Source: an uncultured Alphaproteobacteria bacterium
GTDB lineage: Bacteria > Pseudomonadota > Alphaproteobacteria > GCA-002720895
Assembly (NCBI GenBank): GCA_902607475.1
Contig: CACLKH010000007.1
Coordinates: forward strand, 1-43,062
Direction of reading: 5' to 3'
Length of the DNA: 43,062 bases
Of this stretch, positions 36,435-39,184 are shown piece by piece. Under the pieces are notes generated by a model. It saw nothing but the letters and a program-made list of their open reading frames with translations, did no database searches and was not told the DNA's origin. A program made the position numbers and the translations under genes. Within the stretch, counting starts at the first letter, position 1; each line of letters starts with the position of its first letter.

Positions 36435-37052
36435 ATGTATTTCTTAAGACTTATTCTAATATTTTTTCTTTTTACCTCAATGTTAACGTTGCAGGGATGT
36501 GTATCTTCGCCTACTTATGCTGGCGATGCCTGTAGTATTTTTGATGAAAAATATTTTTGGTTTAAAGCCGCAAAAAAAAGTTCAAAAAAATGGAAAGTAC
36601 CGATTGCAACACTTATGAGCGTTATAAATCAGGAAAGTGCTTTTAAGCAATATGCAAAACCTCCAAGAAAAAAGTTATTTGGATTTATACCACTTCTTAC
36701 TAGAGAAAGTTCAAGTTTAGGTTATTCTCAAGCCACTAAAGGAAGTTGGGAACATTATAAAAAAGTAACTGGAAAAAGATTTGTAACACGTATTAGCTTT
36801 AAAGATTCAGTTGATTTTGTAGGCTTTTATATTGATCAAGCCAATAAAGAGTTGGGAATATCAAAAAAAGATACTTTCAATCATTATTTAGCTTATCACG
36901 AAGGGATGAATGGATTTAGGAAAAAAACATATAAGAAGAAACCCGAACTTTTGAAAATTGCAAGTAGAGTAGAAAAACAATCTCAAACCTATAATAAACA
37001 GTTATCAAAATGTATGAGTAAATTAGATAGAAATAAATATATACTTTTCTAA
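36435..37052 (+). CDS. Lytic transglycosylase (SLT-like) lipoprotein
   Basis: Signal with lipobox-like LQGC; WKVPIATLMSVINQESAFKQ...SLGYSQATKGSWEHYK; ...YLAYHEGMNGF. Confidence 0.8.
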   Translation: MYFLRLILIFFLFTSMLTLQGCVSSPTYAGDACSIFDEKYFWFKAAKKSSKKWKVPIATLMSVINQESAFKQYAKPPRKKLFGFIPLLTRESSSLGYSQATKGSWEHYKKVTGKRFVTRISFKDSVDFVGFYIDQANKELGISKKDTFNHYLAYHEGMNGFRKKTYKKKPELLKIASRVEKQSQTYNKQLSKCMSKLDRNKYILF

Positions 37053-37055
37053 TTC

Positions 37056-37190
37056 CTAGATATCATCTATTTCATCAAGCTTAATTTTTTTTCTTACATA
37101 TCTTTTTTTAGATTGAATAACTTTAGGTCTAAATGTAGAGGTTCTCAAAGCTTTAGCAGAAGGATTTTTTATAACTTTTTTTTTCTTCAT
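37056..37190 (-). CDS. Small 44-aa ORF, ArfA (alternative ribosome-rescue factor A)-like; not in supplied ORF track
   Basis: Hand translation MKKKKVIKNPSAKALRTSTFRPKVIQSKKRYVRKKIKLDEIDDI*. ATGA overlap with the dapE stop (37187-37190). Pattern A-x-AL-x4-FR-x-[KR]-V-x3-KK..Y-x-RK resembles ArfA. Confidence 0.7.
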   Translation of the reverse strand: MKKKKVIKNPSAKALRTSTFRPKVIQSKKRYVRKKIKLDEIDDI

Positions 37191-38329
37191 TTAAAATATT
37201 CTTTTAAAATTAACTTATAAATTTTAGTTAGATTTTTTAAATCTTTTAATGAAACCTTTTCATTGTTAGTGTGCATTGTTTTACCAACTAAACCAAATTC
37301 TACAACATTTGTATAATCTTTTATAAATCTTGCATCTGAAGTACCCCCATCAGTTGCATACTTAGGATTTCTTTTTGTTATTTTTTTTATACATTTTTTA
37401 ATAAGCTCAGAAAATTTTCCTGGTTTTGTTAAAAATGCATTACCAGAAACATAGGTTTCTAATTTGTATTTAAGACCTACTTTATTGAATTCTTTTTTTA
37501 TCCATTTTGTTAACGATTTAATTGTATGATTAGTGTTAAATCTAATGTTAAAAGAACCTCTTGCTTTTGCTGGTATTACATTTAAAGCTTCATTTCCAAC
37601 ATCTATGGAAGTTACTGAAATTATTGATGGTTGAAAGTGTTTTGTTCCTTTATCTAATACTTTTTTATCTATATTAGTAAGCATTTTCATTAGCCCAGAT
37701 ACTGGATTTATAGTCCTATTAGGCCAAGCAGAATGCCCTTCTTTTCCTTGGACCTCAACCATGCAATTAAATCCACCTCTTCGACCTATTTTTATTTGAT
37801 CTCCTAAAACTTTTAAATTAGTGGGTTCTCCAACTAAACAATTATCAATTTTTATATTTTTTTTTTTCAACCATTGTAAAATTTTTCTTGTTCCAAGCCA
37901 AGCATACGTTTCTTCATCTGATGTAATCATCATAGAAATTTTTCCTTTGAAATTATTATTTTCATTTAAAAAACTTTTTGCGGAAGATAAAAAGCAAGCA
38001 ATAGCAGATTTCATATCTACTGCGCCCCTTCCAATTAAAAAATTATTTTTTATTTTTCCAGCAAATGGATCAATCGCCCACTCTTTTTTTTCTGCAGGAA
38101 CTACATCAACATGTCCAGCAAATGAAAAATGTGGTTTACCACTACCTATTTCAGCATATAAATTACTTATTGAATCATAACCTTTTTCAGAAAATCTTAA
38201 TTTTTTACATTTAAAACCTAAAGCTTTACATTCTTTTTCAACAACTTTTAATGCAGAATCAGCATTAGGGGCTATTGATTTACATCGAATTAATTTCTGG
38301 GCAATTTTAATTTCATTAGAATTTTTCAT
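37187..38329 (-). CDS. dapE: Succinyl-diaminopimelate desuccinylase
   Basis: FSFAGHVDVVPAEKKEWAIDPFAGKIKNNFLIGRGAVDMKSAIACFL; GGTSDARFIKDYTNVVEFGLVG. Confidence 0.96.
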   Translation of the reverse strand: MKNSNEIKIAQKLIRCKSIAPNADSALKVVEKECKALGFKCKKLRFSEKGYDSISNLYAEIGSGKPHFSFAGHVDVVPAEKKEWAIDPFAGKIKNNFLIGRGAVDMKSAIACFLSSAKSFLNENNNFKGKISMMITSDEETYAWLGTRKILQWLKKKNIKIDNCLVGEPTNLKVLGDQIKIGRRGGFNCMVEVQGKEGHSAWPNRTINPVSGLMKMLTNIDKKVLDKGTKHFQPSIISVTSIDVGNEALNVIPAKARGSFNIRFNTNHTIKSLTKWIKKEFNKVGLKYKLETYVSGNAFLTKPGKFSELIKKCIKKITKRNPKYATDGGTSDARFIKDYTNVVEFGLVGKTMHTNNEKVSLKDLKNLTKIYKLILKEYFK

Positions 38330-38335
38330 ATGCTT

Positions 38336-39184
38336 TTATTCACGTAGTAAATCATTAATACTTGTCTTTTTTCTAGTTTTTTCATCCACCTCTTTAATTA
38401 TTACTGCACAATATAAAGATGGTGCTGATGGACTATTTTTATCAGGTAATGTACCAGGCACCACTACTGAATAAGGAGGAATTTTTCCATAAATTATTTT
38501 TCCAGAAGCACGATTTACTATTTTTGTAGATTGGCCGATATACATTCCCATGCTTAATACAGATCCTTCTCCGACAATTAATCCTTCAACAACTTCTGAC
38601 ATTGCTCCTAAAAAAACATTATCCTCAATAATAGTTGGAAGCGCTTGGGCTGGTTCTAAGACTCCACCCACTCCTGAACCTGCAGAAATATGACAATTTT
38701 TTCCAATTTGGCAACAACTTCCTGCTCTTGCAAAAGTATCGATCATTGTACCTTCTCCGATATATGCTCCTATATTTACATAACACGGCATTAGCACAGC
38801 ATTCTTTCCGACAAAAGATCCTTTTCTGACTGGAGAATTAGGAACCATTCTAAATCCTGCCATAACATGATCTTCCTTTGTCCAACCTGCTGTTTTTCCT
38901 TTTAATAAGTGAGCCTTGTCATACCAACTACTGTAAGGACCGCTTAAACTATCCATTTCATTTGTTTTAAAGCTAAGGAGTATAGCTTGTTTGATCCATT
39001 GATTAACAATCCATTTATTATCTTTTTTTTCTGCAACTCTAATTTTACCTTCATCTAATAAATTTATAACTTCATTTACAGCCTCAGGTAATTCACCTTT
39101 AATTTGAGGATTAATTTCTTCGATTTTTTCAAAATTTGTTTCAATAATTTTTTTTAATTGCTCAACATCCATTTTTTTAACCAT
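38336..39184 (-). CDS. dapD: Tetrahydrodipicolinate N-succinyltransferase (start possibly 39172)
   Basis: GFRMVPNSPVRKGSFVGKNAVLMPCYVNIGAYIGEGTMIDTFARAGSCCQIGKNCHISAGSGVGGVLEP. Confidence 0.97.
   Translation of the reverse strand: MVKKMDVEQLKKIIETNFEKIEEINPQIKGELPEAVNEVINLLDEGKIRVAEKKDNKWIVNQWIKQAILLSFKTNEMDSLSGPYSSWYDKAHLLKGKTAGWTKEDHVMAGFRMVPNSPVRKGSFVGKNAVLMPCYVNIGAYIGEGTMIDTFARAGSCCQIGKNCHISAGSGVGGVLEPAQALPTIIEDNVFLGAMSEVVEGLIVGEGSVLSMGMYIGQSTKIVNRASGKIIYGKIPPYSVVVPGTLPDKNSPSAPSLYCAVIIKEVDEKTRKKTSINDLLRE

Follow-up and report, generated by a model that had tools for sequence, protein, structure and literature searches.

A 44-residue ArfA-like protein encoded beside dapE in an alphaproteobacterial metagenome assembly

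The window considered here, a whole stretch of 43,062 nucleotides, comes from the metagenome assembly of an alphaproteobacterium (841 kb, 72% complete). Between dapE and a convergent transglycosylase gene it contains an interval in which the supplied ORF track lists nothing, and in which the initial annotation proposed a 44-codon gene for an ArfA-like ribosome rescue factor. Is this interval a gene, and does its product belong with ArfA? In surveys ArfA is restricted to beta- and gamma-proteobacteria, with BrfA in Bacillus besides, and not one of 2,376 genomes of Alphaproteobacteria was reported to have it (PMC11633108, PMC8012679). The only report of ArfA linked to an alphaproteobacterium that we found in the literature is the annotation of gp30 in Pelagibacter phage HTVC027P (PMC12753301), and our literature search for DUF7230, the Pfam family closest to the protein, found no mention of it.

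The open reading frame and its conservation

The minus-strand ORF, its overlap with the dapE stop and its distance from the SLT gene are exactly as first described (Table 1). According to Pfam, the neighbourhood is composed of dapD, dapE, SLT, def, fmt and truA.

Table 1. Coordinates of the ArfA-like ORF, its segments and adjacent genes in the window
Feature	Position	Strand	Remarks
44-aa ArfA-like ORF	37056..37190	minus	MKKKKVIKNPSAKALRTSTFRPKVIQSKKRYVRKKIKLDEIDDI; 44 codons; ATG at 37190, natural TAG stop ending at 37056
dapE (M20 peptidase family, Pfam)	37187..38329	minus	TGA overlaps the ATG of the 44-aa ORF (ATGA)
Convergent SLT_4 transglycosylase gene (Pfam)	36435..37052	plus	end 3 nt from the stop of the 44-aa ORF
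dapD (Pfam)	38336..39184	minus	upstream, same gene run as dapE and the 44-aa ORF
F20-R-P-K-V24	37119..37133	minus	gapless alignment to ArfA F25-R-Q-R-V29, the strand-adding segment for RF2 domain 2
K28-K-R-Y-V-R-K-K35 basic segment	37086..37109	minus	aligned to ArfA K33-K-(GKG)-S-Y-M-R-K

Named near relatives of the window genome are assemblies of marine origin that carry the label Pelagibacteraceae or Alphaproteobacteria. The full-length ORF is found in four of the five assemblies of the same genus (the window's own and three others, with 84-86% protein identity), and these carriers share both the ATGA overlap with dapE and the order dapD-dapE-ORF-SLT-def-fmt. In comparisons within the genus, third codon positions account for 17 of 24 and 12 of 17 substitutions (codon-position counts 6/1/17 and 2/3/12), and NG86 dN/dS is 0.064 and 0.098; ratios of about 0.06-0.10 together with the third-position excess indicate purifying selection on this frame. 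The conservation of the frame near dapE and its dN/dS, which had been put forward as checks, thus both support the ORF, which is a genuine gene, conserved and constrained. A chance, non-translated ORF in AT-rich sequence, which its shortness and absence from the track might suggest, is ruled out for practical purposes by the conserved frame, start, stop and synteny, by a dN/dS of about 0.1 or below, and by homologues throughout the class and in phages.

Adjacency to dapE is restricted to the window's genus and is not seen for the other family members; since the coupling is genus-specific, the tie to the lysine/peptidoglycan pathway that had been suggested is unsupported, and a functional connection with the genes of lysine or peptidoglycan synthesis was rejected.

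Relationship to ArfA and DUF7230

By itself, the 44-aa protein gives no match to the Pfam ArfA model (PF03889, cut-off 25.5 bits), the search that the initial annotation had recommended, and NCBIfam and phmmer against PDB return no ArfA match either, phmmer giving no credible match to any chain there. Its best single-sequence match is DUF7230 (PF23876), with 21.7 bits and E 2.3e-4 over residues 6-37, below the curated cut-off of 27. Homology to ArfA therefore rests on profiles, via intermediates. A class-wide search of 385 alphaproteobacterial genomes, seeded with relatives found through DUF7230, revealed a patchy family present in 32 of them (matches at E below 1e-6) and comprising about 30 alphaproteobacterial relatives, with the core RNPxAKxLRxxxFRPKVVxSKK(GKG)xYxRKxKH.

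A profile of 27 alphaproteobacterial members, compared with all of PDB, matches six E. coli ArfA chains, at E between 1.5e-6 and 4.1e-6, and beyond them nothing significant (next E 0.98); no ribosomal protein is matched, a built-in composition control which shows that richness in lysine and arginine is not the cause. When KGKGS-type members are left out in a jackknife, the profile still finds E. coli ArfA at 25.9 bits (E 6e-5), against 9.7 for the best shuffled ArfA. A profile made of KGKGS-type members only finds the 44-aa protein at 34.9 bits (E 1.4e-7), against 14.2 for the best of 5000 shuffles. Aligned by hhalign to ten bona fide ArfAs, 11 DUF7230-type sequences reach a probability of 87% (E 4e-6), and for a larger set without KGKGS the score against ArfA is 36.9, where 100 column shuffles reach at most 16.1. 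Alphaproteobacterial members with KKGKGS[FY] pass the Pfam ArfA model directly (32.8 and 26.7 bits versus 25.5). The weakest link appears when the profile is restricted to the 11 closest sequences: ArfA chains are then the top three matches in PDB, yet with E of only 0.11. Taken through its alphaproteobacterial family, the homology of the 44-aa protein to ArfA is well supported by these profile comparisons.

The relationship between the two Pfam families is illustrated by the ArfA of Pseudoalteromonas phage J2-1 (L128, 283-438), which passes both cut-offs (ArfA 41.3 against 25.5 and DUF7230 28.6 against 27) and lacks KGKGS although it lies above the ArfA cut-off. This double pass argues for placing ArfA and DUF7230 in one clan. 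Our results as a whole suggest that DUF7230 is part of an ArfA superfamily.

Other family members were observed in many phages of alpha- and gamma-proteobacteria. Proteins of 40-60 aa, unannotated or called 'hypothetical', are encoded by Acinetobacter T4-like phages (L121, L122) and by phages of Agrobacterium, Ochrobactrum, Sinorhizobium and Rhizobium (L116-L120), and weak matches occur in 65 phage records, 44 of them Acinetobacter. Roseobacter phage CRP-212 has a clear ArfA-type ORF (L124:289-411; MRQKNPVAKILRTPRYRQRKVMPKKGKGSYKRNTKHRKETT) in another frame inside the annotated gp38, so that either two genes overlap here or gp38 is mis-annotated. The gp30 of HTVC027P is of the same alphaproteobacterial sequence type (FNPVAKEVRTPKYKSQIIKPKKGRGSFKR) as the 44-aa protein, but is phage-encoded, retains KGRGS and extends further at its N-terminus; its gene (L136) overlaps that of the terminase small subunit, sequence type and position pointing to phage-host exchange. 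Viral contigs searched with the genus alignment contain no close relatives.

The E. coli ArfA sequence with which the protein had first been compared is correct, and the proposed common spacing stands in part: F-R-x-x-V is exact, the KK-x-Y interval is three residues shorter through loss of KGKGS (KK-R-Y versus KK-GKGS-Y), and A..AL is out of register. The equivalent of the Phe25 aromatic and the FR-x-[RK]-V strand are present without gaps (F20-R21-P22-K23-V24), and across the alphaproteobacterial family the F20 position is occupied by F, Y or L. Ala18, whose replacement by Thr inactivates E. coli ArfA, is aligned with Lys13, and most of the alphaproteobacterial family also differs there; the N-terminal RF2-activating fold must therefore differ in detail from that of ArfA.

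In RF2 domain 2, the beta-sheet gains a strand from ArfA residues 25-29; ArfA residues 31-48 occupy the mRNA channel, and the ArfA N-terminus is ordered only on the ribosome with RF2 (PMC5378476). Phe25 packs on RF2 Val198/Phe217, and Leu19, Leu24 and Phe25 touch Trp319 (PMC5378476, PMC6299226). The 44-aa protein retains the strand with its aromatic residue (F20-RPKV24) and a basic channel segment (KK-Y-RKK), and K28-K35 is predicted to occupy the vacant mRNA channel. The RF2 of the window genome retains SPF, F217 and W319, with I for V198, most of these being general RF2 features. Rescue factors of this kind are species-specific (PMC6881298).

In summary, ArfA (PF03889; E. coli YhdL) is of the same size class and shares the core N-[PA]-x-x-x-x-L-x-x-P-x-[FY]-R-x-[RK]-V-x-x-x-K-K-(GKG)-x-Y-x-R-K. 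Because the 44-aa protein falls below the Pfam ArfA cut-off, lacks KGKGS and Ala18 and ends at a natural stop without hairpin, whereas E. coli arfA is made as a non-stop message, we file the gene as an ArfA-like variant in the wider ArfA/DUF7230 family and not as a canonical ArfA. The kinship first claimed therefore holds at the level of profiles and of relatives with an in-ORF terminator, but the gene alone fails the Pfam ArfA model.

In-ORF terminators and two gene forms

In E. coli arfA, a hairpin/terminator precedes the stop codon and yields a message without stop (PMC8012679). We scanned the interval from the YxR core to the stop codon, requiring a hairpin plus a T-run, a procedure that also recovers the hairpins of E. 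coli, Proteus, Vibrio and Pasteurella arfA. Among the 11 alphaproteobacterial members with at least 23 codons after the core, 10 carry such a terminator-like structure before the stop, versus 1.8 predicted by shuffles; the same scan finds none in short-tailed alphaproteobacterial members. Among 98 control ORF ends taken from these loci, a hairpin of the same stability (-12 kcal or better) occurs only once. Hairpin position and stem are conserved between pairs of related genomes, and L050 and L057 differ by paired changes (AU/UA to GC/GC) under a constant GCTCC/GGAGC stem. These in-ORF terminators, an arrangement common to ArfA and several alphaproteobacterial relatives, are evidence for ArfA kinship that is independent of sequence profiles. 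They are not limited to KGKGS-type members, since L045 (genome G225), which lies above the DUF7230 cut-off and lacks KGKGS, has one.

Two forms of the gene are proposed: a terminator-controlled one, which would be made only when trans-translation fails, and a short one, which would be always on and translated with the upstream gene. Members of the first type mostly have their own GGAG-like Shine-Dalgarno sequence, and several natural-stop members start as an ATGA overlap or within 40 nt of the upstream gene. The gene of the window is of the short, natural-stop form, with 11 codons after the core and the ATGA coupling to dapE; its natural stop had been read correctly from the start, and the ORF is free of hairpins (z = +1.7 versus -3.7 for E. 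coli arfA). The annotated Pseudoalteromonas ArfAs L131 and L135 are short too and have no in-ORF terminator, so that ArfA function is compatible with a natural stop.

In family f98, L053 and L061/L063, from two genera, are KGKGS-bearing and KGKGS-less members that lie near the same neighbour gene, and both start as ATGA overlaps with the upstream gene, which suggests that KGKGS was lost within one orthologous lineage.

Proposed function and its alternatives

The context in which a rescue factor would work was examined through the other rescue systems. In the six genomes of the window's family, SmpB is present in four and alpha-tmRNA in three, so trans-translation exists in this lineage. The window's own assembly yields neither, which is due to its incompleteness since relatives have both, and missing trans-translation was for this reason dropped as an explanation of the 44-aa gene. 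Searches for the RF1/RF2 family in the six genomes return full-length RF1 and RF2 (343-365 aa) and no ArfB, and the 44-aa protein, without GGQ, is not itself an ArfB (NF006718). The proposed survey of ssrA and arfB thus gives a genus that has tmRNA/SmpB and in which ArfB is undetected; the chance that ArfB was missed in all five genus assemblies through incompleteness is about 0.001.

Class-wide, ArfB occurs in 128 of the 385 genomes, and its association with the ArfA-like family is weakly negative (Fisher p = 0.03; 0.09 without the window's genus), five genomes carrying both. A class-wide replacement of ArfB was rejected, since the association is weak and both genome size and phylogeny confound it; replacement in the window's genus only is a possibility. 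As a separate observation, genomes G342, G060 and G367 (families f39, f56 and f80) have the ArfA-like gene and no ArfB, whereas the other genomes of these families have ArfB, which is suggestive of possible rescue-factor swaps within each family.

We consider it probable, with good though incomplete confidence, that the 44-aa ORF encodes a short ArfA relative acting as an RF2-dependent and probably constitutive non-stop rescue factor. RF2-dependent rescue is, judging from the retained residues, the most likely function, and ribosome binding, RF2 recruitment and rescue activity are attributed to the protein by analogy with ArfA. The protein would bind ribosomes that have run to the end of a message lacking a stop codon. 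With the basic KK-Y-x-RKK segment in the empty mRNA channel and the FRPKV strand docked on RF2 domain 2, RF2 would open and hydrolyse the stranded peptidyl-tRNA. Constitutive expression through the coupling to dapE is plausible, and in this genus the protein may back up tmRNA-SmpB in place of ArfB.

The main alternative, which we judge unlikely, is a small basic DUF7230-type protein that shares ancestry with ArfA but recruits no release factor and has a different ribosome-linked role, for instance in assembly or hibernation or as an accessory subunit factor. DUF7230 is a family without assigned function, Pfam prefers it to ArfA for this protein, KGKGS and Ala18 are absent, and the coexistence with ArfB in five genomes would be compatible with a different role. 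However, members such as L045 carry the in-ORF terminator characteristic of ArfA, an arrangement that fits a product needed when trans-translation fails, and the neighbouring gene shared by KGKGS-bearing and KGKGS-less members in two genera of f98 also speaks against this reading.

A smaller probability, low enough to be called improbable, is given to an ArfT-like factor whose basic tail senses the empty channel and which recruits RF1, or RF1 and RF2, by a different contact. Francisella ArfT has 40 aa, a KKGGSTNKK motif and no hairpin (PMC6299226). The Francisella tularensis protein resembles ours in length (about 40 aa), in its natural stop and its basic stretch at the C-terminus, in lacking KGKGS and Ala18 and in not being regulated as a non-stop message, but it uses RF1 or RF2 and has no equivalent of Phe25, which is kept here as F20; moreover the kinship of the 44-aa protein to ArfA is one of sequence, beyond mere similarity of layout, whereas kinship to ArfT is undemonstrated. 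BrfA of Bacillus subtilis is likewise a small basic rescue protein that depends on RF2, binds the channel with its tail and supplies RF2 with an extra strand, but it has two N-terminal helices, is made from a non-stop message and is reported to be unrelated in sequence.

Returning to RF2-dependent rescue, a broader proposal, to which we give even chances, is that an unrecognised branch of ArfA, including DUF7230, exists in Alphaproteobacteria and their phages in terminator-controlled and always-on forms, the latter having replaced ArfB as second rescue system in the window's genus, which is marine and streamlined. If this is true, ArfA-type rescue would be wider than thought and probably older or more mobile, being phage-borne; DUF7230 would gain a function, and the missing backup would be identified for a lineage without ArfB. 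The occurrence of terminator-controlled and natural-stop forms in one family would make emergency versus standing ArfA a testable question.
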